Source of the DNA: a bacterium
Lineage (GTDB): Bacteria; Patescibacteria; JAEDAM01; Absconditabacterales; Absconditicoccaceae
Length of the DNA stretch: 26,928 bases
Reading direction: 5' to 3'
Assembly (NCBI GenBank): GCA_017442645.1
Contig: JAFRZH010000006.1
Span: 1 to 26,928 of the forward strand
Shown here: positions 335 to 26,928 of the stretch, in pieces
Layout: each line of letters begins with the position of its first letter
How positions within the stretch are numbered: position 1 is the stretch's first letter
Made by a program: the position numbers and the translations under genes
The notes under the pieces: generated by a model
The model's database searches: none
What the model was told of the DNA's origin: nothing
What the model saw: the letters and a program-made list of their open reading frames with translations, nothing else

Positions 335-805
335 ATGCCTTTCTATTCTCGTAAAAATCCTCGCGCTTCTTGGTTTGATTATTCATCGGAATGATTATTT
401 TTTGTAACCATTTGTACCAAAGATCATGAATGTTATTTTGGGAAAATTGAAAATAACAAAATGCTCTTTTCAGAGATTGGTAAAATTTGTGAAGAAGAAT
501 TGCAAAAGATGTTATCAATAAGACCAAACATTGAACTATTTAATTATGTGATTATGCCAAATCATGTCCATTTATTATTGTGTAAAGGTGATGATAATCT
601 TTTTCTATGAGATATTATTGCATGATTTAAAGCATGAGTCACAAGACATTGTCATCAAGAAAATATAACATTTTGATGGCAAAATCGTTATCATGATGTA
701 ATTGTACGTGATGAAAAAGGATATATTGCGATGAATAATTATATTTCAACCAATATTGAGAATTGGGGAAAAGATAAATTTTATAAAATATGGGAAGGAA
801 TATAA
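335..805 (+). CDS. REP-associated tyrosine transposase (RAYT, Y1/IS200-like)
   Basis: 156 aa when TGA is read as glycine. Family features are seen in order: an N-terminal block RKNPRASWFDYSSEG, then FFVTICTKDHECYFG, the His-x-His metal-binding motif in VIMPNHVHLLL, then WQNRYHDVIVRDE and the C-terminal helix YISTNIENW that carries the usual catalytic tyrosine region. RAYTs are single-strand DNA transposases that act on REP hairpins. Here REP units sit on both sides, at 5-273 and 813-883. Five glycines are TGA, so the gene has been resident long enough to adapt to the host code. The start is the first ATG of the open frame. There is no clear ribosome binding site. The length fits a compact RAYT and all motifs are intact, so activity is plausible. 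Confidence 0.9.
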
Positions 806-812
806 ATTAAAA

Positions 813-883
813 TGTAGGGACGGCATTCTTGCCGTCCTTTTCCCCACAATACCCAATAGGACACGAAAAATCGTGTCCCTACA
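813..883. repeat. REP-like unit, fourth copy
   Basis: This unit has the same two hairpins and the same TGTAGGGAC/GTCCCTACA boundaries as the array at 5-273. It starts 7 bp after the RAYT stop codon. Both hairpins are perfect, so it could also help to end transcription of the transposase gene. Confidence 0.9.
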
Positions 884-1004
884 TATCATTGAAAATTAAG
901 CACTTTTCTCCACAAATTCTACCATTTTTGGGGATTGTCATTTCTCTTGAAAAGAACGGAAGAAACACTATCTCTTAGTCAGATTCTTTTATTCTTTTTT
1001 CACT

Positions 1005-1703
1005 ATGAACAAACGACAAAAAATTCTTTTATGCTGTATGATTGGAATGATCTGTTTGATCTGACGATTCTGTTTCTCCCCTCAGACACTCCCCCATCAT
1101 ACCTTTCCCCTTACTTGAAACGTTGAACTTCTTTTTTTCAATACTTGAACGACTGCGCAAGAACTGATAACCACGCATCGTTGCAAAACTGCGGTTAATG
1201 GTTCCTATTTTGACTATGATGAAAACGGGAATTTTCTGCCTGCGGGGATTTGGGTCGAAAACGGTGAAGCAACTTATCACACGGAGCCAAAGTCCGATGA
1301 TGTCAATCTTCGCAATGTTTTGCATTTTCAGTCCTCCCCTCTCACTATCGAATGGTACTTTGATCAAGCGAATATCATCCATAAAAAAGAGGGAGAAACC
1401 TGAATCTTTTTCAATGCTTGACCTCGACTTTTGAAAGACGCCTCGGTGAATGAAGAGTTACAAAAAGGACTCTCTCATCGAAGCATTCCTACTCAAAGAA
1501 CGATTCTTGCTCAAAAAGGAAATCAGACTTTTCTCCTTCTTTTTGAAGAAAAAGTAACCTTGAAAGAAGTTGCGGAAGAACTAAAAAAACAAGGATTTGA
1601 GCGCGCGGTTAATCTCGACGGTGGGCCTTCAAGTTCTTTTGCGAGCGAAACAGAACAATTTAATAGTGAAAAACTCTTACCGATTTTCTTTTGTATCAAC
1701 TAA
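1005..1703 (+). CDS. Phosphodiester glycosidase family (NAGPA/DUF2233) protein, exported
   Basis: 232 aa with five TGA glycines. The N-terminus (MNKRQKILLCCMIGMICLIG) is basic and then hydrophobic, a signal or membrane anchor with several cysteines. The NAGPA domain follows: TAVNGSYFDYDENG with a later GIWVENG, then IFFNAGPRLLKD, RTILAQ and the hallmark NLDGGPSSSFA near the C-terminus. Members of this family cleave sugar-phosphodiester linkages, often on cell-envelope polymers; the substrate here cannot be read from the sequence. In the standard code the gene would be split into several pieces. The start is the ATG that gives a complete signal segment. The next gene begins 70 bp downstream and may be co-transcribed. 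Confidence 0.85.
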
Positions 1704-1773
1704 TTTTCCTTCTCTGCTTGATTTTTCTCTCAAAAAACGCTACAACAGCAATGTTTATTTCTCACGCAATATC

Positions 1774-2288: not shown

Positions 2289-2310
2289 TATAAAAAAGTT
2301 TAAAAATCTC

Positions 2311-2340: not shown

Positions 2341-2350
2341 TCAGTCAATT

Positions 2351-2400: not shown

Positions 2401-2441
2401 AAATTAACAAAAAAAACAATAAAACATAAATTTTCAGAATC

Positions 2442-3047
2442 ATGGAAAACATCCAGGAATTGGAAGACTTTGTCGCTTGGAGTGGCAAGCTTCTCAGGGT
2501 CATCAAGCGTCCGCGAACAATCACTATTCGCAAAGTCAACGGAAACTCAGAGACATTGGTCAACAAGAAAGGCGAAAGCCTCATCGCAGAAGCAGGTAAG
2601 CACGTTGTATGCTACAACGTGAAGAACGGAAATCCTGTAGATCCCTACCCAATGACGTTCGAAGCTCTCGCTGAGAACTGGCAGAATTCAGGTCAAAAAC
2701 TTGAAGGAATGGACATCTACGAGGGGAAAGGCATTCAAACCAAGGTCTTAGTGACAGTAGAATTCTACAACGCCCACATCGACCTGATGAACCAATTCGT
2801 CGATCCTACATGGAAGGAGACAACTTCAGTAGCCGGTACGGAAGACCCAGTCTTTGTAAAGGACAAGGTCGCAACCACCGAAGCAGGAGACTCCAAGTAC
2901 CAAGACATCCGGAAATACGGCTGGGTAGTTCTCAACTTCACAAAACAGGGTTACATCTATGATGTATACCCCAATGACGCCACGAAGTACTATTTCGTCA
3001 ACGCCCCCGAAGAGTTGATTGAATACATCAAACGAGTGGCAAGCTAG
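2442..3047 (+). CDS. Hypothetical protein, GC-richer, no TGA codons
   Basis: 201 aa, soluble, no signal peptide. The family is not recognised. The stretch GESLIAEAGKHVVCYNVKNG, then YPMTFEALAENW, weakly recalls small PGDYG-like modules, but this is not a call. Codon choice stands out: many AAC, GTC, CTC and CGC codons, visibly higher GC than neighbours, and no TGA although there are more than ten glycines. It has its own promoter, a structured leader and a GC-rich terminator of a type not used by neighbours. This suggests either high expression or recent transfer as one transcription unit. It lies inside the direct-repeat-bounded block 2172-5036. Confidence 0.7.
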   Translation: MENIQELEDFVAWSGKLLRVIKRPRTITIRKVNGNSETLVNKKGESLIAEAGKHVVCYNVKNGNPVDPYPMTFEALAENWQNSGQKLEGMDIYEGKGIQTKVLVTVEFYNAHIDLMNQFVDPTWKETTSVAGTEDPVFVKDKVATTEAGDSKYQDIRKYGWVVLNFTKQGYIYDVYPNDATKYYFVNAPEELIEYIKRVAS

Positions 3048-3252: not shown

Positions 3253-3453
3253 ATGACTGCAGTTACTCTCAACTTTCCCATAGATTTGGTTAAATTTGTC
3301 GATAGCACCGATGAACTTGAACAATATCTCCAAAATGCAATGTTTGATTACGTTGAAGCAAAACAAGATGCACAGCTCAAAGAAGAATTAAAAAACAATA
3401 CCGAATATCATCTTTTAAATCAAAAACTCGATAGCATCTTATGAAAATTATAG
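3253..3453 (+). CDS. Antitoxin of a RelE-type toxin-antitoxin module
   Basis: 66 aa. The protein is small and mostly helical, with acidic and polar C-terminal stretches (DYVEAKQDAQLKEELKNN), as in short antitoxins that wrap around RelE-like toxins. No DNA-binding fold can be named with confidence. Its end (SILGKL, with TGA as Gly) overlaps the toxin start by 13 bp, which indicates translational coupling. The call rests on size, position and the identity of the downstream partner. It is probably autoregulated from the AT-rich region just upstream. Confidence 0.7.
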
Positions 3454-3767
3454 AAACACAGTTTTTCAGACAGCAACTACATCAATTATCAGCAAAATAT
3501 CCAAAGATTTTTGAAGATTATGAGGATTTTCAAACTTCATTTAATCCCCATTTTTCTACTAATTTATGAGATTCTGTTTTCAAAGAAAGATGTAAAAATT
3601 CTTCTATCCCCACGGGGAAAAGATGATGATTTAGAATCATTATAAAAGTTTTTGGAGACATTGCTGTCCCTTTATTAATCTATTCCAAAACAATACAAGA
3701 GAATATCACCGCCGAAGAATTAAATCATGCTTTATCAAGTGTTATCAAAGAATTATCTTTTAAGTAA
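3441..3767 (+). CDS. RelE/HigB-like toxin
   Basis: 108 aa. The core GKRGGFRIIIKVFGDIAVPLLIYSKT matches the beta-sheet core of RelE-superfamily ribosome-dependent mRNA endonucleases (GKSGGxR ... LLIYSKxE), followed by a helix with NITAEELNHALSSVIKEL. Both glycines of KRGGFR are TGA. The ATG lies inside the antitoxin gene. Catalytic residues of RelE families vary, so activity is not asserted. The toxin ends in the bidirectional element at 3783, facing the reverse-strand HicA. Confidence 0.8.
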
Positions 3768-3782
3768 CACTTTACAAAGAGT

Positions 3783-3836
3783 AAAAATCTGACTCTCTGT
3801 CACGAATGGACTCAAAAACGAAGAATCCGATTTTTT
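3783..3836. terminator. Dispersed hairpin element, copy c, between convergent TA genes
   Basis: The arms are AAAAATCTGACTCTCTGT and ACGAAGAATCCGATTTTTT. It lies between the RelE-like toxin (forward) and HicA (reverse) and its right edge reaches the HicA stop codon, so it probably terminates both. Confidence 0.75.
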
Positions 3837-4074
3837 ATAGATTTTTTTTGATGATTTCAAAGACTTCTTGCTTAGTTATTCATAAATCTTCTGCAATATC
3901 ATTTAAGAGATGATTAAAAAGTCCTTCTTTCAATTCTTTATGACAAGGAATGGTAATAGGAATATTGTCCTTATATTTTAATTGTGCATGGGAACCTTTT
4001 TGTTTATACTGTACATATCATATTTTACTTAAAATCCTAATCAAATCTCTTCACGAAATACTCAAAAATACCAT
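3835..4074 (-). CDS. hicA: HicA-type toxin (mRNA interferase)
   Basis: 79 aa. The dsRBD-like HicA fold is shown by SGRDLIRILSKIGYVQYKQKGSH (in two parts), with the catalytic GSH, then ITIPCHKELKEGLFNHLLNDI and GITKQEVFEII. Key glycines of SGRDL and KIGY are TGA. HicA toxins cleave mRNA and are neutralised by HicB, encoded just upstream with one base between the genes. HicB comes first here, the less common order. The stop lies in the terminator shared with the converging RelE-like toxin. Confidence 0.9.
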
Positions 4075-4075
4075 G

Positions 4076-4291
4076 CTATGAAATAACCATATTAAAAGTA
4101 TGAGAGGTTTTATAATTGATAAGATGTGAAAGATTAACAGGGACTTCTTGAGATTCTTTTGAAAAATAAAGACTTACTGCTTCTTTTAAATTACTTATTA
4201 ATTCCTCAAAGTTTTCCCCTTGAGTATGAATTCTATATTCAGGAAGATAAGCACTATATCAAGATTTTTCTTTAGTGATTTGAATTCCCAT
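4076..4291 (-). CDS. hicB: HicB-type antitoxin
   Basis: 71 aa. It has the partial RNase-H-like HicB fold: ITKEKSGYSAYLPEYRIHTQGENFEELISNLKEAV (start to middle), where YSAYLPE and the GENFEELISNLKEA helix are the family hallmarks. The C-terminus is short and shows no clear DNA-binding domain. It is the first gene of a two-gene reverse operon with hicA. The start is the ATG at 4291; upstream lies copy d of the dispersed element. Confidence 0.88.
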
Positions 4292-4360
4292 TGATAATAA
4301 GAAAAAGATAAATCACTTTCTCTATAAGATTTCTCATCAAAAAATCAAATAAAATTTTAA

Positions 4361-4416
4361 AAAATCTGACTCTCCGTTCACGAATCTGCTCATAATCGAA
4401 AGAATCAGACTTTTTT
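4361..4416. repeat. Dispersed hairpin element, copy d, between divergent TA operons
   Basis: The left arm is AAAATCTGACTCTCCGTTCA and the right arm TCGAAAGAATCAGACTTTTT. It stands between two divergently read HicB genes, where no terminator is expected. This argues for a role other than, or in addition to, termination. Confidence 0.75.
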
Positions 4417-4451
4417 GCTTAATTTTCATTGATTTTAGAAAAAGATTTATT

Positions 4452-4703
4452 ATGGTAGAAGAAGATTTATCTTTATCACACAAAAAAATGAAAAATAATA
4501 TTATTATGCGAAAAGAAGGAGAATATTATGTCACAAGAGTATTGGAAAATAATCTGAGTTCTTTTGGGAAAACAGAAAACGAAGCTTTAAAAAATACCTA
4601 TGAAGCAATTCAGTTGTATTATGAAGATGAAGAAAATACAAGAATTTTGCAAAATTATGTCATTTCGCATCCTTCTTTAATTGAATACGAACTTCATGCC
4701 TAA
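4452..4703 (+). CDS. hicB: HicB-type antitoxin, second module
   Basis: 83 aa. NNIIMRKEGEYYVTRVLENNLSSFG with TENEALKNTYEAIQLYYED shows the HicB beta-sheet followed by the helix that carries the TxxEAxxN pattern. A second in-frame Met near residue 13 could also be the start. The stop codon overlaps the next gene's ATG region by 8 bp, which ties it to the HicA toxin. The sequence is distinct from the HicB at 4291, so this is a separate module and not a recent duplicate. Confidence 0.82.
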   Translation: MVEEDLSLSHKKMKNNIIMRKEGEYYVTRVLENNLSSFGKTENEALKNTYEAIQLYYEDEENTRILQNYVISHPSLIEYELHA

Positions 4704-4917
4704 AGTGTATAAAGCAACAGAAATCTTGAAAATGTTATTATCATATGGTTTTCAAAAAGTTTCTCAAAAATGATCTCATTTGAAATTGCAAAATCAAAAA
4801 GGGAATATGGTTATTTTACCAATTCATTCAAAAGATATTCCTTATGGTACTTTTATCTCTCTTTTGAAACAAGCAAATCTTGATATACAAGACGCTAAGA
4901 AATTTTTAGGGAAATAA
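4696..4917 (+). CDS. hicA: HicA-type toxin, second module
   Basis: 73 aa. It shows KATEILKMLLSYGFQKVSQ, then KGSHLKLQN with the catalytic GSH (Gly = TGA), then MVILPIHSKDIPYGTFISLL, where the second histidine and the G-T-x-x-S-L-L turn match HicA. It overlaps hicB by 8 bp. It ends 3 bp before the long copy e of the dispersed hairpin element. Confidence 0.9.
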
Positions 4918-5162: not shown

Positions 5163-6461
5163 ATGGTCAATTCTCTCCAAGAAAATCTTATCAATATTAT
5201 AGAACAACGAGTAAAGTCCCCTTTCCCTCAAATTTATGAAAGAAAGGATTTTCAAATTGATATAGAAAATCTCTATAATATTCAAGCTATTATCTGACCT
5301 CGTCGTGCTGGTAAAACCTATTTAATGTACCAATTAATTCAAAAATTGATCAATCAACAAGTATGTAAAAAAGAAGATATATTATTTTTGAATTTTGAAC
5401 ACCCTCAATTAGCTTCCTTAAAAGGAGTTGAATTATTGGATGTTATTCCTCTTTATCAACAAAAATTTTGAAAAAATCCTCAATATCTTTTTTTTGATGA
5501 AATACAAAACGTTCAAGATCGATGAAGAAGTGTAAGATATTTGCATGATCAAGGATTTAAAATCGTCCTTTCAGGAAGTTCCTCTAAATTATTACTCAAT
5601 GAAATCAGTACGGAATTAAGATGAAGATATTCTCATACTCTCGTCTTACCCTTTTCTTTTAGAGAGATTTTGGAGATTAACGGAATAGCCACTCATACTC
5701 TAATGGGAGATTTTTCAAAAGCAAATATTCTTGCTCTTTTTGACTATTATTTACAATTTTGATGATATCCAACCGTATATTTTGAAAAAAATGAAATTAT
5801 AAAACAACAAGTATTATCTGATTTTTATAATTCAGTATTTTATAGAGATATTATCAATAGATATCATTTACAAGATTTTTCAATTATGGAAATCTTGATG
5901 AAATATTGTCTTGATATGTATTCATCACAATTATCTCATCAAAAAATCGCGTCTTATTTTCAAAATATGTGAGCACAAATAAGCAAACCTACGGTATTAA
6001 AATATCTTTCTTATCTAAAAGAAGCTTTTTTCGTTATTGAGGCGAAAAGATTTTGATTTTTTCCTAAAACAGCATTACTTGCCCCTAAAAAATATTATCT
6101 CATTGATCAAGGTTTTATTACTCTTAGTGCTTGATTTTCTGAAAATAAGGGGGAAAAATTAGAAAATAGTGTTGCAATCGAACTCTTTAGAAAAGGATAT
6201 GAAGTTTTGTATTTTAATGAAACAAAAGAATGTGATTTTATTGTAAAAAATAAATTTTCTGGAGAAAGAGAAACAGCAATCCAAGTGACTCGAGATTTAA
6301 ATATTGAAAACGAAAAAAGAGAAATAGGATGATTACTTGAAGCAATGAAAAAAGGAAAGATAAAAAAGGGAATAATTCTGACTTATAACCAAGAAGAAAT
6401 AAGAGAAAAAGATTGATTTATCATCAATATTATGCCTGCATGGAAATGGATGACAGAATAA
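5163..6461 (+). CDS. AAA_14/DUF4143 family ATPase
   Basis: 432 aa. Walker A is GPRRAGKT at about residues 45-52 (first Gly is TGA), Walker B is YLFFDEIQ at about 108-114, and a sensor-like IVLSGSSSKLL follows, as in AAA_14. A winged-helix-like segment (SQLSHQKIASYFQNMGAQIS ...) and a C-terminal DUF4143 nuclease-like half follow (AVLENSVAIELFRKG-like block: KLENSVAIELFRKGYEV, then ECDFIVKN and AIQVTRDL, the D-x-V/Q-V-T pattern of a PD-(D/E)XK fold). These proteins are common in archaea and CPR bacteria; their biological role is not settled. The start ATG 5163 gives a normal N-terminus; a TTG at 5115 is less likely. Confidence 0.85.
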
Positions 6462-7835: not shown

Positions 7836-10127
7836 ATGAATATTAAAGAATATATTGAGAGTAAATTAAATGAAGAACAAACAAAAGCAGCACTTCATAC
7901 AGATACTCCTTCTCTTATTATTGCAGGTGCATGATCTGGAAAAACGAGAGTTTTAACCTATAAAATTGCGTATCTTATTAAAGGTCTTGGATGTCCTGTT
8001 CAGAGGATTTTGGGAGTTACCTTCACCAATAAAGCTGCAAATGAAATGAAAGAAAGACTTGTTCAGATTTTTGAAGATTTGGAGAAAGAACATATTGTGG
8101 GATATAATGAAGAAACACAGAATGATGAAGAAAATACTTCTGATAGTGTTTTGGATTTTATTGAAGAAATGAACAGAACTTCAAATCTCAAACCATCTAA
8201 AAAAATTTCTACTAATGATTTAAAATGGATTTGAACCTTCCACTCAATCTTTTTGAAAATTTTAAAGGAAGATATTGAAGGTTTAGGAAAGAAATACGAT
8301 AAAAATTTTTCTATTATTGATACAAAAGATAGAGACTCACTTTTAAGAGAAATCTTAAAGAAATTAAATTTAAAGGATCAATTTCAAGAAAAAGAAGTAA
8401 GTGCATTCATTTCAAAACAAAAAAATGCAGGATTTACCGCTAGAGATTTTAAAAGCGAAGCAACAAACGATTACGAAGGAAGTATGGTTCAAATTTATGA
8501 GGAATATGAAAAAAGAATGGAAACATCCAATACTTTGGATTTTGATGATCTCCTACTTTTCCCACTTATTCTTTTTAAATCTAGACCAGATATTTTAGAG
8601 AAATGGCAAAATCATTTTGATTATATCCTTGTAGATGAAGCACAAGATACCAATGGAGTACAGTTTGAATTAGCAAAAATGCTTAGCAGAAATTGAACTC
8701 CTATTACTTTAATTGGAGATGATTTTCAGAGTATTTATAAGCGAAGAGGTGCTGTAATGGAAAATTTTCTGCATGTGGATAAGTACCGATCAGATATTGA
8801 AATTTTTAAATTACAAATGAACTACCGTAGTAGAGCTCATATTGTAAATTTAGGGAACGATGTCATCAAAAAAAATACGAATCAATATGAAAAAAATATT
8901 ATTGCCCATAGAGAAGGAAACGATAAAGTAAGATGTTTTATTCATCGTAGCGATATTGATGAAGCTGCTAATCTCCTCGAATTTATCAAGAAATTAAAAG
9001 AAAAAGAAAGGGTTAAACATTATGGAGATATTGCTATCTTATACAGAAGAAATGCTCAATCCGTTCCTTTTGAAAAGATCTGCGTACAAGAAGGAATCCC
9101 CTATCTCATTCACGGATCATTCAAATTTTTTGAAAGAAAAGAGATTAAGGATATTCTGGCTTATTTAACTTTTTTTATCAATCCTAAAGACTCTCTTTCT
9201 CTCAGAAGAATCATTAATGTTCCTAATAGAAAAGTCGGTGATACAACCATGGGGAAAATTATTTTCTATGCTGAAGAACATGGAAATTCTCTCTATGAAA
9301 CCATCTATGCAATGCGAAATGGGACCATTCCAACAAGCGAATTGAAAGTTACCCCTCAAGCACTTAATGGAGTAAAAAATTTTATTCTCGCGATGGAAGA
9401 TCTAAAAACAAAACTGCCTAATTTAAAACCAAAAGAATTTATTGAAGAACTGGTAAAAAAGATTCATTATAGAGATTATCTTATCCAAGAAGAATGAAAT
9501 GAAGAAGCTGCAGATGAAAGATATGAGAATATTGGGCAATTAATGAATCTTGCAGAAAAATCTCTCGAACCTTGAATAGAATGATTAGAGCAATTTATGG
9601 AAGAAGTATCTTTGATGACAAGCGACGATAACGATGATGACAATTCGGATAAAATTCAACTTATGACAATTCATAGTAGTAAAGGACTCGAATTTCCTGT
9701 CGTTTTCATTGTAGGATTAGAAGAAGGAGTTTTTCCTTGAAAACAAGCACAATCTGATTATCAAGAATTAGAAGAAGAAAGAAGACTCATGTATGTAGCA
9801 GTTACAAGAGCAAAAGATCATCTTTTTCTTTCTGCTGCACAAAGCAGAATGGAATATGGACAAGAAAAATGCTATCCTTTAAGTGAATTTTTGGAAGATC
9901 TTCCTGAAGATAAAATTGAAAAACTTATGCTAACCAATTGATGAGGATACGAATCAGACTCATGATCAAGAAATACTGAAGAATTTAATGAAAATGATCG
10001 TATTCAACATACTCTTTTTGGACCATGAAGAATTTTAGAAGTACGGGATAGATTTGCGGTTGTTGTCTTTGATAATCCTAAACTCTGAACAAGAAAAACG
10101 GAAACAAGATTTCTAAAAAAAGTTTAA
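7836..10127 (+). CDS. uvrD: UvrD/PcrA-type superfamily 1 DNA helicase
   Basis: 763 aa. All SF1A motifs are present: Q-motif LNEEQ (12-15), Walker A AGAGSGKT (30-37, Gly33 is TGA), motif Ib [21 protein letters not shown], Walker B LVDEAQD (about 266-271), [13 protein letters not shown] (about 295), [12 protein letters not shown], motif [16 protein letters not shown] (about 610), and VAVTRAK (about 654). The C-terminus has the PcrA-like HTLFGPGRILEV module that binds RNA polymerase or partners. The enzyme unwinds DNA 3'-5' in excision repair and replication. In the standard code it would be broken at least nine times, which makes it the best proof of the altered code in this window. The start is the ATG with a normal distance to the Q-motif. 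Confidence 0.97.
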
Positions 10128-10571: not shown

Positions 10572-11981
10572 TTAAGATTGAATAGATTCTTTTGAAGCAG
10601 CATGATTTTTAAAACAAGCTCCAATAATCATAATTCCTGCAAAGATAATAAGATAGAACAGTACAGGACAACTAAATCCCGTTCCAGCTTCTCTACTTGC
10701 TTCATAAGGCATGATTCCATGAGCATAGATTGCTGCAAAAACCATAAATCCACACGCAATAATTGCTAAAATCGGCATAATATATCTCCAAAAAATATTT
10801 TCTGTTTTTTCTTTGATCATATATCCAATAAAAATAGGGATATACATTCCATAAAGCGTGATAATGGGCAATTCACTACTATCAAAGTTGAAAAGTCAGA
10901 ATCGTCCTTCTGTTAAATTTGCACCATAAAAGTATACAAACCATATTGCAGTAATTCACATCTGAATGAAAGTAGAAGCTAATGGCATATTTGAAACAGG
11001 ATCTACTTGTTTGAAAAGTTCAGGATTTGGTCCTTGATTTCTCACTGCGAGGCTATACATACATCTTGATATTCCCATCGTAAGTCCATTAAGAGTTCCC
11101 AAACATGAAACTACAACTAAAGCATTAAGAATAGTTCCTCCGATTGTTCCAAAGATATTGGTGAATGCTGTTGTAGCTCCTTCTTCCATAAGTACTGCAT
11201 TAGTTGCTCCTCCTGCTACTCCGATATAATAAAGCACATAGACTACAATAATCAAAATTGCTCCAGAAATTAATGCGATAGGAAGATTTCTTTTAGAATT
11301 TTTGATTTCACTATTGAGAGAAGTGACACAAATCCAACCTTCATATGCGAATGCCGTTGCTACTACTGCTTTTAGAAGAGAACCTGTTGTTCCTCCGAGC
11401 GCTTCAGATGCCACATGAGTAAAGTTTTCTACGGTCATTCCTGTCATAAGTCCGTAAATTGTTCCCACAATAGCCATTCCAAGAATAGGAATAAGTTTAA
11501 TAATCATCGTTGCAACTTGAATTTTACCTGCTATTTTTGGAGCAAGTGCATTTCGAACAAAACAAGCAATAAGGATAAATCCTGCTAAACACATACACTC
11601 TCCTCCTGTAATAGATCGATCAAAGAGTACTGAAAAATATCTTGCAGTTACCCAGGCTAATACAGAAGTAATACAAGGCAAATAAATCGTTGCAACAAAT
11701 CGTCCAATATAATATGCAAAACCTTTTCCACAGGTATTTTCTGCATAATCTACTACTCCGTTTACTTTTTCATATTTTCCAGCCAAACGAGAAAACATCA
11801 TAATACAAGCCAACATTACGAGTCCTCCAATAATCCATGCCCAGATTCCCAATGGTAAATCTCCTCATGTGGCAATTAAAATGGGTTGAGCTTTAAAGAA
11901 GACTCCACTTCCAATTACAATTCCAACTACTGCTGCGATGGCGGTAATGAGATTGTACTTTTTTGTTAGTTCGTTTCCCAT
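10572..11981 (-). CDS. APC-family amino-acid permease
   Basis: 469 aa, about twelve hydrophobic segments. The N-terminus MGNELTKKYNLITAIAAVVG with GIVIGSGVFF is the TM1 signature of the amino acid/polyamine/organocation superfamily (GxVIGSGIF), then GGLVMLACIM, YAENTCGKGFAYYIG, and the TM6 region TAFAYEGWICVTSLNSEIKN (two overlapping parts), where FAYEGW is typical of LAT/serine-threonine exchanger relatives. It imports or exchanges amino acids in the cytoplasmic membrane; the substrate is not predictable. Only three glycines are TGA, far fewer than expected for a glycine-rich membrane protein in this genome. For an organism that probably lacks most amino-acid synthesis, uptake would be central. 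Confidence 0.93.
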
Positions 11982-12113
11982 GTATTCACGATTAAGAAAT
12001 AAATACATTTTTTACATACACAAAAAAAGAAGAAAAACAAGTTTTTTTAGATTGTATTTAGATTTTATCTTTTTTTTCTTTCCTCATATAAATTATTTTA
12101 CAATATTTTTCTC

Positions 12114-13603: not shown

Positions 13604-13680
13604 ACGTGTGGTAGAACCTTGATAGCTGAAAAGCTAGAAAAAATAGGAGTTTCTTTTAGAGAATCTTCTATTTTTTTTGT
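13604..13680 (+). ncRNA. Putative short RNA or attenuator, about 75 nt
   Basis: Downstream of a consensus promoter lie a perfect hairpin TAGCT-GAAA-AGCTA (13623-13636, GNRA-type tetraloop) and then a long terminator stem of about 16 bp (AAAAAATAGGAGTTTCT with AGAATCTTCTATTTTTT) ending in eight T. No start codon with a plausible frame lies between promoter and terminator. It may be a free sRNA or the leader of the lipoprotein gene at 13749. It does not match SRP RNA, 6S, tmRNA or RNase P by eye. Confidence 0.5.
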
Positions 13681-13748
13681 TTTCTATTGATTTTTTTTTA
13701 CTTTTGAAGATAGTAAAATTTGATTTTTTTATTTTTCATTATTTAATT

Positions 13749-14258
13749 ATGAAAAAATTCTTTGTTTTTTTTATCCTTTTTTTCTCTTTATGGATATTCT
13801 GATGCGATTCAAAAGAAGAAGCAGAAAAACATCTTAATGATTGTACTATTTTATGGGAAGACTGCTATAAGACGACTACAGAACTCATTGAAAAATGAGG
13901 GAATAATATTACTTTACAGGAAATCAATAATACAAAAAGTCTCTGTGAAGAAAAACTTTTTTTTCTTAACAACCTTTCTGCTTACGATAAAGATTATTCC
14001 CTCATCAATGAGGGGAAAAATTTAGTTTCTTTAGAAATTCATTTTTTAGATTTTTTAAAAGAAAATTTTTCTTTTTTTACGCTTCTTTTCCAGGAGCTTA
14101 CTCCTGAAAATGAACAATACAGTAAAGAACATCAATTAGAATTGACTACTTTTGTCGAAAAGTTTTTAAAATATGACCAAGAAATTGAAAAGCAATATCA
14201 ACAAGTTCTTGACACGAAAAAACATTACATTAAAACGTATCAACTTGATGAAAAGTAA
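13749..14258 (+). CDS. Lipoprotein of unknown function
   Basis: 169 aa. The signal peptide MKKFFVFFILFFSLWIFGCD ends in the lipobox IFGC, whose glycine is TGA, so lipidation at Cys20 or so is likely. The mature part is helical with two cysteines early (CTILWEDCYK) and a third after EINNTKSLC, then LNNLSAYDKDYSL and QQVLDTKKHYIKTYQL. It has the same layout as the next two genes (signal, lipobox, a helical region with spaced cysteines) although identity is low, so it may be a more distant member of the same family. It is probably anchored to the outer face of the membrane. Confidence 0.75.
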
Positions 14259-14376: not shown

Positions 14377-14460
14377 TTTTTGTGTCAAGTACGTTATTTG
14401 AGTGTTGAATATATCTAATATCTCTATAGAAACTTTATTTTATTTCTTTTGGTCTTTTTT

Positions 14461-14958
14461 ATGAAGAAGGGTACACTTATTTTATTGGCGTTTGGTGTCT
14501 TAATTTTCTTTTGATGTGATAACAAAAAGAGTGCTGTGGAGTATAACGATCAACTTATCCAAATTATAGAACATTGTACTTCTTCAGAAAAAACTATGTA
14601 TCAAGCAATTTCTGATAATAGTTCCATTTCTCTTGTATCTGCTTCTGTTGACGAAGCAATTAAAAATTGTAAAGAATCGCAGTCTGAAGCAAATGATCTT
14701 GATGATTTTGATGGAGAAACAACATTTAGAGATGCAATTCGTGATTTACTTAATTTAGAACTTCATTATTTATGATTAATCGAAGAAAGTTTAGTATATT
14801 ATGATATAAAAACGATGACTGAAGATCAAAAATCAGCTTATCAATTATTAAGTTCCAATATTGAAGAAGATGAAACTAAAAGTTATTCTTTGATTCAACA
14901 AGTTACCCAAGAGCAGGAAAATTTTGCTCAAAAATACGATTTTTCGTTAGAAAATTAA
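14461..14958 (+). CDS. Lipoprotein, paralogue of the next gene
   Basis: 165 aa. The signal peptide MKKGTLILLAFGVLIFFGC ends in the lipobox FFGC (Gly = TGA). The mature protein is helical and acidic: YNDQLIQIIEHC, then AIKNCKESQSEANDLDDFDG, TTFRDAIRDLLNLELHYL, and an ending QEQENFAQKYDFSLEN. The same sequence of blocks, with the same final NFAQKYDFSLE, occurs in the downstream gene 14984-15637, so the two are tandem duplicates. No family name or function can be given. The two genes are 25 bp apart and probably share the promoter at 14347. Confidence 0.8.
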
Positions 14959-15788: not shown

Positions 15789-15816
15789 TTGAAAATGTGG
15801 AAGATTTTTTTATAGT
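15789..15816 (+). promoter_or_regulatory. Promoter of the EF-G gene
   Basis: TTGAAA (15789-15794), a 16-bp spacer and TATAGT (15811-15816). Transcription would start near 15823, which excludes upstream start codons and supports ATG 15848. Confidence 0.6.
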
Positions 15817-15847
15817 ATCATTGTTTTTAATTTATTTTTTAGAAAAT

Positions 15848-17953
15848 ATGGCAGACGTGACACCTTTGGAAAAGGTTAGAAATCTTGGTATTATGGCACA
15901 TATTGATGCTGGTAAGACCACTACAACGGAAAGAATTTTGTTCTACACAGGGAAAACTCATAAAATTGGAGAAACTCATGATGGAGAGTCTCAAATGGAT
16001 TGGATGGAACAAGAAAAAGAAAGAGGTATTACTATTACTTCAGCAACAACGGTATGTTTTTGGAAAGGATATCATATTAACGTGATTGATACTCCAGGAC
16101 ACGTGGATTTTACCGTTGAAGTAGAAAGATCTTTGAGAGTACTTGATGGAGCAGTAGCTTTGCTTGATGGATCTCAAGGAGTAGAACCTCAAACTGAAAC
16201 AGTATGGAGACAAGCTGACAAATATCGTGTTCCTAGAATGATTTATGTCAACAAAATGGATAAATTGGGAGCAGACTTCTTCAATTCATTGGATTCTATC
16301 AAAGAAAGAATGACAGATAATGGAGTAGCTATCCAAATTCCTAATGGTAAAGCTGATACTTTCGAAGGAGTAGTAAATCTTATCAACATGAAATATTACA
16401 CTTTCGAAGGAGATAAAGGTTCAGAAGTGGTTGAACATGAAATTCCTGCACATTTACAAGCTCAAGCTGAAGAATACAGAGAAAAAATGTTGGATACTAT
16501 TTCTGTATTTGATGATGAATTAGCTGAAAAATTCCTTGAAGGAGAAGAAATTTCAGAAGAAATCATTAAAAGAGCTATCAGAAAAGGAACTGTTGAATGT
16601 AAATTACATCCTGTAATGTGTGGTTCTTCTCTTGGAAATAAAGGAACTCAATTATTACTTGATGCAGTTACTGATTTCTTACCTTCACCTCTTGATATTG
16701 GAGAAATTGAAGGAGAAGATGTTGATGATAGTGAGAAAAAGCTTTACAGAAAACCATCTGATGATGAAGCAGTTTCAGCTTTGGCTTTCAAAATCTTGAC
16801 AGATCCTTTCGTTGGAACTTTGACGTATGTAAGAGTTTATTCTGGAGTTATTAGAACAGGAGATACTCTTTTGAATCCTATTACAGGACAAAAAGAAAGA
16901 GTTGGAAGACTTTTGATGATGCACGCAAATAAAAGGGAAGAAATTACAGAAATTCATGCAGGACACATTTGTGCTTTCTTAGGACTTAAAGATACAAGAA
17001 CAGGAAATACTCTTTGTGATCCAAAAGCTCCTATCGTTCTTGAAAATATGGAATTCCCTGAACCAGTAATCTCAATCGCTGTTGAACCAAAATCCAAAGC
17101 TGATCAAGAAAAAATGGGACTTGCATTATCAAAACTTTCTTATGAAGATCCTTCTTTCACCTACCATTCAGATGAAGAATCAGGACAAACTATTATCTCA
17201 GGAATGGGAGAACTTCACTTGGATGTTATTGTTGATAGAATGAAAAGAGAACATAAAGTAGAAGTAACAACTGGAGCTCCTCAAGTAGCTTACAGAGAAA
17301 CGATTACTCAAGATGTTGAAGGAGAAGGACTCTTCAAAAAACAGACTGGAGGTAGAGGACAATATGGACATGTATGTTTGAAATTGATCCAGAATTCTGA
17401 AAAAATCTACGATTTCGAATCTCAAATTAAAGGAGGAGTTATCCCTAATGAATTTATTCCTGCTATCGATAAAGGAGCTAAAGAAGTTGTAGCTCAAGGA
17501 CTTTTGGCTGGATATCCTATTATCAATGTGAAAGTTATTCCATTCTTTGGATCTTATCATGATGTGGATTCTTCAGAAGTTGCCTTCAAAGTAGCTACTC
17601 ATATGGCTATGAAAGATGCTTTCTTCAAAGCTAAACCTATTCTTCTCGAACCTATCATGGCTGTAGAAATCGTTACTCCTGATGAATATACAGGAACGGT
17701 TATGGGAGATCTTAGTTCAAGGAGAGGAATTATTCTCGGACAATCTCCAAGAGGAAACGCTACTGCTATTGAAGCAGAAGTTCCATTAGCTGAGATGTTC
17801 GGATATTCTACAGATCTTAGATCAAATACTCAAGGTAGAGCTCAATTTACAATGCAAATGAAAAAATACGAGAAAGTACCTGATGTAGTTGCTAAGAAAA
17901 TTATCGAAGAAAGAGCTGGAAAATTCAGAGGTTCTTCTGCTGATGATGAATAG
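15848..17953 (+). CDS. fusA: Translation elongation factor G
   Basis: 701 aa, the normal length. GTPase motifs: G1 AHIDAGKTT (17-25), the switch I region [10 protein letters not shown]3 DTPGHVDF, G4 NKMD, G5 GSSLGNKG. Domain II, then [20 protein letters not shown] (domain III), [10 protein letters not shown] and [18 protein letters not shown] (domain IV) and SSRRGIILG (domain V) follow. EF-G moves tRNAs and mRNA through the ribosome after peptide transfer. It has about 58 glycines and not one is TGA; all are GGA or GGT, so a highly expressed gene avoids the reassigned codon. It stands alone, without the usual rpsL-rpsG or tufA neighbours. The N-terminus [14 protein letters not shown] fits the family; a longer frame to 15797 runs into the promoter. 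Confidence 0.98.
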
Positions 17954-19565: not shown

Positions 19566-20786
19566 TTATTTTAGGTAATACAAATAAAGATTTTCTTTTT
19601 TTAACATTTTTGCTGTTTCTACCACTTCTTCATAAGAAACATTAAGTAAATGATTTAATACTTCTTCTAAACTCTCTAATTGGAGTTTATAAACAAATTG
19701 ATTTCCTAAGAAACTTGCAACTTCATAAGGACTTTCTAATCCCATTTGAAAACTTCCATTTAAATAACTTAAAGCATCATCATATTGTTCTTTCGAAAAT
19801 TGCCCTGATGCTGTTTTCTCAATCATCTCATATAGTTTACCTATTCAAAAGTCTCTTTTTTCTTTATCAATTCCTGCACAAATCAAAAAATTTCCAAAAT
19901 CATTACAAGCCTGATGAGTAGAGTATACATAATAGCAAAGTCAGAGTTCTTCTCTTATTTTTTGGTATAAAAGTGAAGAGGTATTTCCTCCAAGAATTGT
20001 AGAAAGAACTTTTGCTGAGTATTTTTGATTTTGCATATAATCAAATCCTTTTGCCGATATAATTAAATGACTTTGTTCAACTCCTTTTTCAAAAAATGAT
20101 TCATGTTCTTGAGGGGAATATCCTGTAAAAGGTATTTTTTCAAGTGTTTTTTTATCAGGTAAAAGAGAAAAAGTCTGATCTATCTTTTTTTTCAATTTCT
20201 CTCCTTCCAGGATTTTCCCTGCAACCACAATAAAAAGATTATCTTTTGTGTATAACTGATTTTTAAATTCAAAAAGCATGTCCTGATTAAAATTCAGAAT
20301 ATTTTCTACGGTTCCAATTACTGATCTTCCGTAATTATTTTTTCAAAAAAACCACTCCCCTCGGTTCTGTTCTAAGACATCTCTCGGCTCATCCTCATAC
20401 ATTTTGAGTTCTTGAATTACTACTCCCTTTTCTTTTTCCATTTCTTCTGTATCAAAACGAGCAAATACCATCATGTCTGATAAAACATCAAATGCAGTTT
20501 CTCGATAATTAGGAGCACATCTCACATAATAAGCAACTTTTTCTTCTGATGTAAATGCATTAAAATCCCCTCCTATTTTATCTATTGCAAGAGAAACTTC
20601 TTTAGGCGTTTGATATTTTTTTCCTCCTTTGAAAAACATATGTTCCAAAAAATGACTGATTCCGTTATGTTTCTCATCCTCATAATACGATCCTGCTTTA
20701 CAATAAATTTTAATCGTAATTGAATGGGAATCTTCCATCGGAGCAAAAATACAATCCACTCCTCCAATTTTTTCAATTGAAAACAT
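19566..20786 (-). CDS. M16 family zinc metallopeptidase
   Basis: 406 aa. The inverted zinc motif HFLEH (residues 45-49) lies in GISHFLEHMFFKGGKKYQTP, followed by IGGDFNAFTSEEKVAYYVRC and the third ligand region EKEKGVVIQELKMYEDEP, the M16 (processing protease/pitrilysin) order. The C-terminal domain has GGNTSSLLYQKIREELGLCY, in which LxxxIREELGLxY is the family hallmark (Gly = TGA). M16 enzymes degrade or process short peptides; bacterial single-domain forms work as dimers. It has no signal peptide, so it is probably cytoplasmic. ATG 20786 is preferred over a TTG two codons upstream. Confidence 0.95.
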
Positions 20787-20803
20787 CTTCAATAAAAAGA
20801 AAT

Positions 20804-21027: not shown

Positions 21028-22125
<1,098 letters not shown>

Positions 22126-22130
22126 TTAAT

Positions 22131-23084
<954 letters not shown>

Positions 23085-23085
23085 T

Positions 23086-24204
23086 ATGAAAATTGTATCA
23101 TTAATTCCTCTAAGAGGAGGATCTAAATCAATTCCATATAAAAATATTAAAGTCATTTGATGACAACCTTTATGTAATTGGACAATCAAGGCTTCTTTAT
23201 GATCAAAATTAATTAATGAAACACGAGTTTCTACAGATGATGAAAAAATAAAAGGAATAGCAATAAAAGCTTGAGCTAAAGTTATTGATAGACCAAAAGA
23301 ATTTTGAACAGATACTGCAAGTACAGAATCAGTTATGATACATTTTATGAAAAATATAGATTTTGATATTTTAGTTACGATTCAAGCAACTTCACCACTA
23401 ACTTCCCCTGAAGATTTAGACAATGCCCTGAACAAATTCTTTGAAGAATGATATGATTCTATGTTGACTTGAGTATTAACTAAAAGATTTTTTCGAACTA
23501 AGGAGTGAAAATCATTGAATTATGATTTTATGCATAGACCTAGAAGACAAGAATTTGACTGAACTATTATGGAAAATTGAGCTTTCTATATTACAAAAAA
23601 AGAAATATTACAAAAATATTGAAATCGTTTATGATGAAATATTTGAGTTTATGAAATGGAAGAAAAACATGCTATAGAAATAGATGAGCCATCAGATTGG
23701 AATATTTTAGAATGATTATTATCAAAAAGTACAAAACAAGATTTTGAAAATGTAAAAGTTATTTTTTCAGATTTTGATTGAGTATGGACTGATAATAAAA
23801 TAACTCTCAATGAAGAATGACTAGAAAGTTTAACTTTTAGCAAAGAAGATTCTTTATGACTAAATTATTTCAAAGAAAAATCCAATATCCCACTAATAAT
23901 TCTTTCTAAAGAAAGGAATAAAATTGTTGCTAAAAGATGTGAAAAATTAAATTTAGATTTAGAAAGAGCTCTGGATTGAAAAAAAGAATATATAGAAAAT
24001 TATTTAAATGAATACAATTTGGAATGGGATAATGTGTGCTACATATGAAATGATTTGAATGATTTAGAATGTATTAAATTGGCTAAATACTCTTTTTGTC
24101 CAAACGATGCAAATGAATACATAAAACACAACTCAAAATACATATTAAAACATAATTGATGAAATTGAGCTATAAGAGAATTATTAGATTTAATATCCAA
24201 TTAG
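23086..24204 (+). CDS. neuA: Fused CMP-nonulosonate synthetase and KdsC-like HAD phosphatase
   Basis: 372 aa. The N-terminal domain (1 to about 215) is an acylneuraminate cytidylyltransferase: IPLRGGSKSIPYKNIKVIGG, STDD, TIQATSPLTSPEDLDNA, HRPRRQEF with a later ENGAFYITKKEIL. The C-terminal domain (about 223-372) is an HAD phosphatase of KdsC type: motif I VIFSDFDGVWTDNKI, motif II IILSKERN, lysine in ERALDGKKEYI, motif III YIGNDLNDLECIKLA. Such fusions remove the phosphate from a nonulosonate 9-phosphate and activate the sugar with CTP. This fits the NANS-like synthase encoded next. The call of the sugar (Neu5Ac, KDN or legionaminic acid) is open. Confidence 0.93.
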
Positions 24205-24233
24205 TTATATTTTATATTATTAATTATATTACC

Positions 24234-25100
24234 ATGGAATATAAAAAACCTTTCGTGATTGCAGAAATAGGATGTAATCATAAATGAGACATGGAAATTG
24301 CCAAAGAAATGATAAAAATGGCAAAAATTTTTTGTAAAGTAGATGCTGTTAAATTTCAAAAAAGGTGTAATAAGGAATTATTAACTCCAGAAGAATATAA
24401 TGCTCCGCATCCAAATCCAGTAAACAGTTATGGTAAAACTTATGGAGAACATAGAGAATTTCTTGAATTTACAGCAGAACAACATAAAGAATTAAAAGAA
24501 TACTGTGAATCAATATGAATAATATATTCAACTTCTGTTTGGGATTTAACTTCTGCTAAAGAAATTGTTGCACTAAATCCTCAATTTATAAAAATTCCAT
24601 CTGCTTGTAACTTAAAATTTGATATGTTACAATATATTTGTGATAATTACGATGGAGAAATTCAACTTTCATTTTGAATGACAACCAAAGAAGAAGAAAA
24701 GAAAATAGTAGATTTCTTCGTTAAGAACTGAAAAGCTAAAAATTTAATAATATATGCTTGTACTTCAGGATATCCTGTACCATTTGAAGATATTGCATTA
24801 CTCGAAATTACTAGACTAAAAGAAGAATATGGAAACATTGTTAAAGAAATATGATTTTCGTGACATCACTTATGAATTGCTGTTGATGTCGCTGCTTATA
24901 CACTATGAGCTTGTTATATAGAAAGACATTTTACACTTGATAGGACATGGAAATGAACAGACCATGCTGCATCATTAGAACCAGATGGTATGAGAAGGTT
25001 AAAAAGAGATTTGGATGCCGTGAATAAAGCTCTAACTTATAAATCAAAAGATGTATTAGACATAGAAGAAGTTCAAAGAAAAAAATTAAAAAGATTTTAA
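24234..25100 (+). CDS. neuB: NANS/NeuB-type nonulosonate synthase lacking the SAF domain
   Basis: 288 aa, TIM-barrel synthase that condenses PEP with a hexosamine or hexose derivative. Seen: PFVIAEIGCNHKGDMEIAKE, DAVKFQKR, then SYGKTYGEHREFLEF, IKIPSACNLKFDML, and SGHHLGIAVDVAAYTLGACY with IERHFTLDRTWKGTDHAASL. The KTYGEHxxxLEF block resembles the animal-type sialic acid 9-phosphate synthase (NANS) more than the usual bacterial NeuB, by memory of those sequences. The protein ends at VQRKKLKRF, where an antifreeze-like SAF domain of about 60 residues normally follows; no frameshifted SAF remnant is seen downstream. In NeuB the SAF domain caps the partner's active site, so its absence is unusual. 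Confidence 0.93.
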
Positions 25101-25114
25101 TTAACTCAATACAT

Positions 25115-25972
25115 ATGTTTGAAATTTTTTTTAGAATATGAAAATTTTTAGAAAAAATACTTCCTAAACGGATATTTAATTTTTTATGATTTATATTTGA
25201 TTGTTTATATTTTATTCCATCAGGGAATAAAAAACTTGTTGAAAAAAATAGTTTATTAAAATGAATATGAAAATGAAAACGTGCTTTTATATTGGCAACA
25301 TGACCAAGCATAAATGATAATGATTTAAAAGAGTTAAAATGAGAAGACTGTTTTTCTGTCAGTAATTTTTTTCTTCATGATGATATAAATGTAATTAATC
25401 CTAAATATCATTTTTTTGCACCATATCATAAACCTCTTATTCTTGAAAATTATATTGAACGATTAAAACAAGCTGATAAAACTTTGCCTAAAAACACAAA
25501 AATCTTTTTATGACATACAACAAAACAGTATGTGGATAAATATAATTTATTTCCAAATAGAGAAGTTAATTACTTATATTTGTCGCCTTTTGCTATAAAA
25601 AGTAATACAAATATAAAATATCCAGTACTTTCACCTATAACATGACCACACATGATTTTCCCTGTTTTGTTTTATATGTGATATTCTGAAATATATTTAT
25701 TATGATGTGATCATAATACATTAAAAACATATTGATGAGATAGAAATGATTTTTACGATAGAAAGAAAGACATTAGAAAAAATGCAGCAGATAAAAATTG
25801 ATGGATGTGAAACATTATTGAAGAATTAGAGGCTAATTTAAAAATGTTTAATCAGTATAAGATATACAAGAAAATAGCCGATAAAAAATGAATAAAAGTT
25901 ATTAATTTGTCTGAAAAATCTTGGTTAGATATTTTTGAAAAATCAAAATTAAATAAGATTTTAAATCATTAA
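25115..25972 (+). CDS. DUF115-like protein, possible nonulosonate transferase
   Basis: 285 aa with many TGA glycines. After an N-terminal hydrophobic and basic stretch (KILPKRIFNFLGFIFDCLYF) comes the motif RAFILATGPSINDNDLKELK, the G-P-S nucleotide-binding pattern of DUF115/MptE-like proteins, then CFSVSNFFLH, SPITGPHMIFPVLFYMGYSE and IYLLGCDHNTLKTYGGDRN. The DUF115 fold is also the core of Maf proteins, which move CMP-activated nonulosonic acids to proteins or glycans. Lying directly after neuA and neuB, the gene could transfer their product. This is an inference from context; a GT42-type sialyltransferase relative is the alternative. Confidence 0.6.
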
Positions 25973-25986
25973 TTATTAAATAAATA

Positions 25987-26928
25987 ATGAATGAATGAAT
26001 GAAATATATTGCGATAGTGAAAAATAAAATTAAAAATTGAACTTACAGACTTATTGATAATAAATGTCTTTGCTGAAATAATGATGATACTAAAGATATT
26101 ATTATCTCTAAAAATGATAGATATTGATTTAAAATTCCTCAAATATTGTGCACAAAATGTTGATTAATAAGGAGCTGATTAATATTTGATAAAAATTCTA
26201 ACACAGAATTTTATAAAAATGAATATCGCACAATTTATGTTCCGAAAGATATAAAACTTTCTAAATTTTTTGAAAATCAACTAAATAAAGGTAAACAATT
26301 CTACGAATTATTTTCTAAACATGTAAAATCTGATACTAATCTTACAGTTTTTGATGCTTGATGTGGCGCTTGATGAATGTTAATACCACGAAAAGAAAAA
26401 TGATTTAAAACTAAATGATGCGATTTTAATACAAAGTATCTAAATTTTTGAAAATCTAAATGATTAGACTTGATGTTTTGAGATGTTGAAGACATATTAA
26501 AAAATGAAGAAATAGATGTTCTTATTTTAAGTCATGTATTTGAACATTTTATTAATCCTATTCAAAAAATTCAAAGTATAATTAATCATATTAAAAGATG
26601 ATGATACTTAATTTTTGAGGTTCCTGGTATATTTTCAATTCATCAACATTATTATAAACCTATAGAATATTTCCAAAATGCTCATGTCTATAATTATTAT
26701 AAAGATTATTTATTCCAATTTTTTGAGAAAATATGACTAAATGTTATATATTGAGATGAAAGATGTACATTTATATTACAAAAACCTGTTGATTATATGG
26801 AATACAAAGTAAATCAAATTGTCATAAATGACTGAGAAAAATATTCAAAGAAAATTTTAAGATATCTAAAAATTAATAAATATTTTTATTGGATAAATCC
26901 CTTTTTCATAGCAGATAGATTACTCAAA
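25987..26928 (+). CDS. Class I SAM-dependent methyltransferase (partial, 3' end off window)
   Basis: 314 codons to the window edge and still open. An N-terminal zinc-ribbon-like part (CLCGNNDDTKD, then LCTKCGLIRSG) is followed by motif I VFDAGCGAGGML, DVLILSHVFEHFINP and GGYLIFEVPGIFSIHQHYY, the layout of C-methyltransferase-like enzymes of sugar biosynthesis. It is probably a glycan-modifying enzyme of the operon. By my count 18 of 21 glycines are TGA. The start lies in four tandem copies of the tetramer ATGA (25987-26002); ATG 25987 and ATG 25999 are both in frame, the others are not. Confidence 0.85.

Follow-up and report, generated by a model that had tools for sequence, protein, structure and literature searches.

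The tiny uncultured bacterium behind contig JAFRZH010000006.1 (26,928 nucleotides, the whole stretch analysed here and called the window below) appears to use a triply recoded genetic code, in which UGA is read as glycine and both CGA and CGG very probably as tryptophan. We put the probability of this reading at about 0.93. In the proposed table UAA and UAG would remain stops, and CGU, CGC, AGA and AGG would encode arginine. Because CGA and CGG are very probably tryptophan codons, the standard 'code 25' table would mistranslate the window. An earlier note on this DNA had claimed genetic code 25; its glycine at UGA and its stops at UAA and UAG stand, but CGA and CGG score as tryptophan, 45 bits above arginine.

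Thirty-one genes were delimited in the window from open reading frames listed under table 25, and 26 of them carry in-frame TGA. The earlier note had counted at least fifteen genes broken at TGA in the standard code, and table 11 interrupts 26 of the 31. Glycine is written with 184 TGA and 303 GGN codons. Of the 30 complete genes, 22 stop at TAA and 8 at TAG, never at TGA, as the note had also maintained, and no internal TAA or TAG occurs within the 31 frames, both partly by construction. Translated with table 25, the larger genes give Pfam family matches spanning most of the protein length. UvrD, GDP-mannose dehydratase, GDP-fucose synthase, NeuA-HAD, NeuB, AAA_14, amino-acid permease, M16 peptidase, metallo-beta-lactamase fold and EF-G are among the families matched with TGA as glycine; for 12 of the 30 window proteins scanned, Pfam gave no family. 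The GDP-mannose 4,6-dehydratase (GMD) is 365 residues long, the length of most listed homologs, and the GDP-fucose synthase (GFS) has 317 residues versus 321 in the solved Escherichia coli enzyme.

Because the database entries of relatives are of doubtful translation, codon meanings were scored against DNA of standard-code genomes. These genomes were found via EF-G, and homologs of UvrD, GFS, M16 peptidase, permease and AAA_14 were extracted from them. With TGA, CGA and CGG masked in the query, six window genes were scored against homolog columns; at least three standard-code homologs per column were needed, and 42 of the 184 TGA and 14 of the 32 CGA/CGG codons could be scored. Over its 42 columns TGA scores +51.2 bits as glycine, -26.6 as serine, the next residue, and -98.0 as tryptophan. 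As a control, a first run on four genes recovered the table-25 meaning of 57 of 61 codons, the misses being CGA, CGG, CTA and TGC. The claim that the TGAs fall on invariant glycines holds for 19 columns, which are at least 80% glycine among four or more homologs, and fails for others, such as UvrD 635, where 19 of 23 homologs have histidine.

Profile scores point in the same direction. When TGA is read as tryptophan (table 4), each of the ten genes compared loses bits in its best Pfam match, from 499 to 428 bits in GMD, from 213 to 176 in GFS and from 54 to 25 in the methyltransferase; two UvrD side-families gain slightly, UvrD_C_2 by 1.5 and AAA_12 by 0.8 bits. The profile comparison that the earlier note had proposed thus favours glycine, and its statement that tryptophan does not fit these positions is borne out. 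The motif glycines it had named were checked in turn: Gly33 of UvrD and the GPRRAGKT glycine of the AAA_14 ATPase are TGA codons (Table 1), as are three glycines of the methyltransferase motif DAGCGAGG (26359, 26371 and 26374). The GSH glycine of HicA and the two lipobox glycines are TGA codons as well, at 4771, 13800 and 14512 instead of 4696, 13749 and 14461, an offset of 51-75 bases. Selenocysteine at UGA, for which few UGAs at Cys/Sec sites and a long tRNA-Sec would be expected, was considered and rejected, since the 184 TGA codons are spread over 26 genes and score as glycine, and the UCA tRNA of relatives is 74 bases long.

CGA and CGG together occur 32 times in the window genes. Over the 14 scored columns they give +16.5 bits as tryptophan, +3.6 as phenylalanine and -28.8 as arginine, the share of CGG alone being two columns; in the same scoring, genuine arginine codons behave as arginine (CGT +15.7, AGA +154.8 bits). 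Six of the columns are mainly aromatic in the homologs (UvrD 303 and 318, GFS 203 and 272, permease 103, AAA_14 119), and none is dominated by arginine. At UvrD 303 we find 19 tryptophans and 4 phenylalanines among 23 homologs, at UvrD 318 21 tyrosines and 2 phenylalanines, and at GFS codon 203 the E. coli enzyme of known structure carries tryptophan in its sequence. Conserved columns repeat the picture from the other side. Of 61 columns with at least 80% arginine in homologs, the window has an arginine codon at 44 (39 AGA, 3 CGT, 2 AGG) and CGA or CGG at none, and the 12 columns with at least 80% tryptophan hold 6 TGG, 2 CGA, 1 CGG and 3 other codons. When CGA and CGG are translated as tryptophan instead of arginine, the best PDB score of GFS rises from 401.6 to 410.1 bits, and UvrD gains against PcrA (427.9 to 433.9) and Rep (360.9 to 368.7). 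The top Pfam family of three genes gains too: UvrD-helicase by 8.2 bits (259 to 267.2), Epimerase by 5.0 (212.8 to 217.8) and AA_permease_2 by 3.1 (143.7 to 146.8).

Next, the reading was extended to relatives. When the window's UvrD was searched against 192 genomes of the class, the 33 sampled genomes belonging to the order of G001 all scored above every other genome listed, and G082 is the closest sampled relative, at 62% identity. Named UvrD proteins among the best matches belong to SR1, Absconditabacterales and Absconditicoccaceae, and to one 'Gracilibacteria' bacterium (P0134), which groups with G003 in the UvrD tree. In this tree, built with Gly, Trp and Arg masked, the window stands beside P0123, P0121 and P0122, and deep branches are weakly supported; the placement is taken from the genome search, not from the tree. 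We infer that the window belongs to the Absconditabacteria (SR1) lineage, a name for the order that is itself inferred.

Thirty UvrD loci of this order were compared at conserved columns. At 19 arginine columns they use 261 AGA, 74 AGG, 47 CGT and 15 CGC, and not one CGA or CGG against these 397 other arginine codons. Tryptophan columns 131 and 303, in all 59 of 59 cells, hold 35 TGG, 21 CGA and 3 CGG, with CGA or CGG at tryptophan in 18 of the 30 loci; column 356 was left out, having no TGG, CGA or CGG cell in the order. Fisher's test of CGA/CGG at tryptophan versus arginine columns gives 4e-24, a value to be read with the relatedness, and hence non-independence, of the sequences. G082 has CGA at column 303. 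In EF-G, Trp89, tryptophan in 77 of 77 homologs, is CGG in the relative G001. A separate count in G082 (L286 and L367; 13 open reading frames, one 20-kb stretch) gave 98 CGA plus CGG versus 44 TGG per 10,000; if CGA and CGG are tryptophan there too, most of its tryptophan would be written with former arginine codons.

The window itself contains no tRNA genes, and decoding machinery was examined in relatives. No prfB above the TIGR00020 cut-off was found in 49 genomes of the window's order. In 46 of them there is one main release-factor match, below the prfB cut-off and with an internal TGA in 45 of the 46; three have none. Outside the order, prfB is present in a Peregrinibacteria and a Bacillus genome (G004 and G005). 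G001 and G003 have a 74-base tRNA(UCA) with G1:C72, C2:G71, G3:C70 and U73 (tRNA positions were numbered by anchoring on the T loop), and these features are the glycine identity rules used in PMC8629427. Similarity matches to this tRNA (E <= 0.001) occur in 45 of the 49 genomes, reaching at least 54 of its 74 bases in 42. Thirty loci picked for their similarity to it were read, and all 30 have anticodon UCA and glycine-identity acceptor ends. In these relatives the two genome checks named in the earlier note, for a glycine tRNA with anticodon UCA and for loss of prfB, thus turn out as it had predicted. For the arginine box, G001, G002 and G003 each have UCG and CCG tRNAs with G73 and with U, not A, after the D-loop GG, as in tRNA-Trp(CCA). 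Positions 1 and 72 pair as A:U or G:U in all of them but one, the G002 tRNA with anticodon UCG, which has G:C. Judged by these bases, the two look like tRNAs of tryptophan type. The arginine tRNAs of the same three genomes (UCU where found, CCU, GCG) have A73, and no ACG anticodon was found in them.

From these parts a decoding scheme for the window's organism can be proposed. Glycyl-tRNA synthetase (GlyRS) would charge tRNA(UCA), which would read UGA unopposed because release factor 2 (RF2) would have been lost. Tryptophanyl-tRNA synthetase (TrpRS) would charge tRNA(UCG) and tRNA(CCG), which would decode CGA and CGG, and tRNA-Arg(GCG), having no inosine-34, would decode CGU and CGC only, so that the CGN box could be split.

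Several observations weigh against the triple recoding. The codon meanings come from alignment, and the tRNA and release-factor evidence comes from relatives only. Of the 14 CGA/CGG columns with a score, no more than 6 have mostly aromatic residues, the other eight being Ala/Ser, Leu or mixed; among these eight, M16 97 is Ala/Ser and M16 144 is leucine in 23 of 27 homologs. Another 18 of the 32 codons lie outside scorable columns. The CGA codons of NAGPA, of M16 97 and 144 and of permease 131, 152 and 369 were not decisive or not scored. Some weaker PDB matches lose score when CGA and CGG become tryptophan, and among 15 Pfam rows there are 5 gains, 7 losses of 0.2-2.4 bits (UvrD_C from 239 to 237.7 among them) and 3 unchanged scores. 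Four genomes (G002, G054, G073, G075) gave no hit in the tRNA(UCA) search and three more (G055, G065, G092) nothing beyond a partial or short one, perhaps through incomplete assemblies. Finally, the UCG tRNA of G002 has G1:C72 instead of the weak A/G1:U72 pair.

How far could other codes account for the data? Plain NCBI table 25, with UGA as glycine and CGA and CGG still arginine, agrees with all the TGA evidence and may be realised in another order of the same class, that of G145. Of the 22 UvrD loci there that hold three or more TGA, 13 have CGA or CGG at conserved arginine and none at tryptophan. It is nevertheless very unlikely for the window, given the 14-column scores and the absence of both codons from conserved arginine columns of the window and of the 30 UvrD loci of its order. 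Less likely still is UGA as tryptophan (table 4), although public proteins of relatives suggest it: among the best 120 listed matches each, 107 GMD and 108 UvrD entries have tryptophan at three or more of the window's glycine columns. Standard-code homologs give glycine for TGA, and the best Pfam scores fall under table 4. The tryptophan of the relatives also stands at glycine columns that the window writes with GGN, and at Rossmann and Walker A glycines, as table-4 translation would produce. Least credible of all is a standard code with decayed genes or sequencing errors. The number of genes interrupted under table 11 would suit it, but the interruptions are TGA only, with no internal TAA or TAG in the 31 frames (partly by construction), and TGA scores as glycine; moreover, none of the 49 genomes of the order reaches the prfB cut-off, and tRNA(UCA) is widespread among them.

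The public proteins deserve closer attention. We examined 24 glycine columns in GMD and 21 in UvrD, selected at 90% or more Gly or Trp, so that the counts above describe a pattern and not a random sample. Control arginine columns hold tryptophan in 0 of 1,320 (GMD) and 0 of 1,800 (UvrD) cells. Conversely, 60 GMD and 97 UvrD entries of the best 120 listed each have arginine at one or more tryptophan columns. Table 4 combined with arginine for CGA and CGG would produce this pattern, which we read from the protein sequences alone. At the window's TGA columns public GMD relatives have tryptophan in 46% and glycine in 42% of cells; the residue apparently follows how an entry was translated, and database homologs were therefore rejected as judges of TGA columns. 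This bears on a test set out in the earlier note, by which tryptophan in the TGA columns was to speak against glycine. With standard-code homologs the columns give glycine, but the same test could have misfired on the public relatives, where the tryptophan cells are the pattern that translation with table 4 would leave. For the same reason tryptophan of relatives at CGA columns, which may itself be misread TGA, counts as support only. Entries without tryptophan at glycine columns number 8 of 120 for GMD and 7 of 120 for UvrD. Among them, 6 of the 8 have tryptophan at the CGA column of GMD, and 3, 5 and 6 of the 7 have it at UvrD columns 303, 318 and 737.

UGA is used very unevenly along the window. 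Its share of glycine codons, counted in 26 of the 31 genes with five small ones left out, is nil for EF-G, 3 of 50 for the permease and, at the other extreme, 16 of 17 for the MptE-like protein. The six genes of the nucleotide-sugar block (21028-26928) have 104 TGA among 134 glycine codons, the other 20 genes 77 among 338. A chimeric assembly, or recent transfer of the 21-27 kb block, would join DNA from two genomes differently loaded with UGA and would explain this contrast; the use of Ile and Leu codons also differs between three block genes and five others. We hold this for unlikely, though it is a far more serious candidate than any of the other codes. Against it, TGA share tracks base composition (17 genes, Spearman -0.72), with EF-G having the lowest share. 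Base composition was itself tried as the sole cause of the TGA-rich block and rejected, GMD and GFS having 37 TGA of 53 glycine codons versus 41 of 131 in AAA_14, UvrD, M16, PHP and metallo-beta-lactamase genes together (p 2.6e-6). In the relative G001 the share is 11 of 59 in EF-G versus 38 of 43 in UvrD, and EF-G is not low in G002 (39 of 60) and G003 (40 of 59). Expression, transfer inside the recoded clade and chimeric assembly are candidate causes of the block. Under chimera or transfer the code claim would hold for each half separately. CGA or CGG falls on tryptophan columns both left (UvrD 303, permease 103) and right (GFS 203) of the boundary, and the reading of CGA and CGG as tryptophan therefore stands in either case.

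Two further open reading frames depart from the rest in composition. Those at 2442-3047 and 12183-12374 have 47-48% GC in a window of 30% GC, and use TGA in 0 of 13 and 0 of 6 glycine codons. They are possibly recent arrivals from a standard-code donor; the first, of 201 residues, had no match in Pfam and NCBIfam scans.

The second order mentioned above, probably Gracilibacteria/BD1-5, allows a comparison. Of its 59 genomes searched, 55 had UvrD matches and the best 30 loci were used. CGA or CGG stands at conserved arginine in 21 of these 30 and at conserved tryptophan in 0, just as in 23 standard-code outgroups (21 and 0). Column 131 is not tryptophan in this order, so that the tryptophan side consists of column 303 alone, which is TGG in 30 of 30. 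TGA stands at conserved UvrD glycine columns in 101 cells, and 22 of the loci have three or more; the other eight hold at most two, too few to show glycine at UGA. CGA occurs 1.5, 2.1 and 10.8 times per 10,000 codons in three AT-rich genomes of the order and 62.7 times in a fourth, compared with 23-81 in five genomes of the window's order and 43 in the window; the two lowest values would mean that CGA is nearly emptied there. CGG is low in both orders, at 3.0-7.5 and 0.9-17.3 respectively. These frequencies come from 18-20 kilocodons per genome, and of the four genomes three had been picked for a UvrD without CGA/CGG and one for having them. On one reading, UGA as glycine is common to the two orders and CGA/CGG as tryptophan particular to the window's, and the class would display codon capture at three stages: CGA and CGG in use as arginine, nearly vacated, and taken by tryptophan. 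We give this reading even odds. Data from one gene (UvrD) and few genomes fit a capture that followed near-emptying of CGA. If true, table 25 would translate one of the two orders correctly but not the window's, and the published doubt whether CGG reassignment reaches Gracilibacteria, or reverted there, would be narrowed. The contrast between the two orders offers a concrete setting for work on the emptying of an arginine codon and its capture.

Glycine at UGA in Absconditabacteria and Gracilibacteria is known and is reportedly due to Campbell 2013 and Rinke 2013. The other two reassignments have also been described. PMC8629427 (Shulgina and Eddy 2021) predicts CGA and CGG as tryptophan in Absconditabacteria, leaves CGG in Gracilibacteria unsettled, and gives UGA as glycine in both groups; PMC13092985 repeats CGA/CGG as tryptophan for Absconditabacterales, and a 2026 paper (PMC13059738) annotates an Absconditicoccaceae bacterium with code 25. 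The triple recoding is thus already published, and the window adds one more member to a code that is known. No protein-level test of CGA/CGG as tryptophan is announced in the titles or abstract openings of the literature searched.

All three codon meanings of the Absconditabacteria code (PMC8629427) recur in the window, together with AGA as the main arginine codon, and the window's relatives share tRNA(GCG), the lack of ACG and the UCG and CCG tRNAs of tryptophan type; the window differs in being a further lineage, with G082 as closest sampled genome. NCBI table 25 (SR1 and Gracilibacteria code) shares glycine at UGA and the UAA and UAG stops, but has CGA and CGG as arginine. The code of the order of G145 likewise has TGA at conserved UvrD glycine columns, but CGA/CGG at arginine, never tryptophan. 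The Anaerococcus and Onthovivens codes (PMC8629427, PMC13092985) resemble the window in that an arginine CGN codon was captured by tryptophan; unlike in the window, only CGG changed there and CGA is still arginine. In practice, a table-25 annotation of this lineage puts arginine where tryptophan is expected, since CGA and CGG would make up 32 of 87 tryptophan codons in the window. Tryptophan of the table-4 kind at glycines in public proteins would be a second annotation error. Both would carry over into profiles, predicted structures and metaproteomics of these bacteria.

Table 1. Features of the window and their TGA, CGA and CGG codons (fractions in the TGA column are TGA per glycine codons)
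Feature	Position	Strand	TGA	CGA/CGG and homolog residues	Remarks
Repetitive extragenic palindrome (REP)-associated (Y1, IS200-like) transposase gene	335..805	+	5 in-frame		Pfam Y1_Tnp; NCBIfam REP_Tyr_transpos below cut-off
AAA_14/DUF4143 ATPase	5166..6461	+	11; GPRRAGKT Gly at 5295	CGA 5520: Phe 3, Trp 2 (n=5)	
UvrD/PcrA helicase	7836..10127	+	12; Walker A Gly33 at 7932	CGA 8742 (codon 303): Trp 19/23; CGA 8787 (codon 318): Tyr/Phe column; CGA 9315, CGG 10044: uninformative columns	
Amino-acid permease	10572..12008	-	3/50	CGA 11702 (codon 103): Trp 10/11; three other CGA not decisive	
Lipoprotein-like gene	13677..14258	+	lipobox Gly at 13800		
Lipoprotein-like gene	14449..14958	+	lipobox Gly at 14512		
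EF-G	15797..17953	+	0/58	0	
M16 peptidase	19566..20792	-	3/29	two CGA, on Ala/Ser and Leu columns	
GDP-mannose 4,6-dehydratase (GMD)	21028..22125	+	21/28		
GDP-fucose synthase (GFS)	22131..23084	+	16/25	CGG 22737 (codon 203): Trp 6/6; CGA 22944 (codon 272): Trp 3, Phe 3 (n=6)	
NeuA-like cytidylyltransferase fused to KdsC-like HAD phosphatase	23086..24204	+	23/26	CGA 23494 (codon 137): opposite Trp in PpNeuA; opposite Arg, one before Trp, in mouse-enzyme alignment	
NeuB-family synthase	24228..25100	+	9/16		start approximate
MptE-like protein	25115..25972	+	16/17		Pfam match below cut-off
Methyltransferase	25987..26928	+	19/22; three in DAGCGAGG motif		runs off the window

Some neighbouring genes may be added to those of Table 1. 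Upstream of uvrD, 6798-7754 encodes a 318-residue PHP-domain protein whose match to models of DnaE, the DNA polymerase III alpha subunit, extends only over approximately their residues 1-290; the scores lie far below the cut-offs and the stop precedes the polymerase part, which makes it a putative stand-alone or split DnaE N-terminus. Three small toxin-antitoxin-like pairs stand in tandem at 3253-4917. The first consists of a RelE-like gene, just under the Pfam cut-off, and a 66-residue partner, and each of the other two of a HicA gene and a possible HicB gene that points the opposite way.

The transposase gene at 335-805 is surrounded by repeats of about 98 nt (window positions 1-325 and 805-935), with copies at 31, 129, 228 and 838, of which those at 228 and 838 are only 64-67% alike. 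Palindromes GGACACGAAAAATCGTGTCC and GGGACGGCATTCTTGCCGTCC lie within these repeats flanking the REP-associated tyrosine transposase (RAYT). By its sequence features, the transposase together with its repeats looks like a RAYT/REP element residing in a recoded genome.

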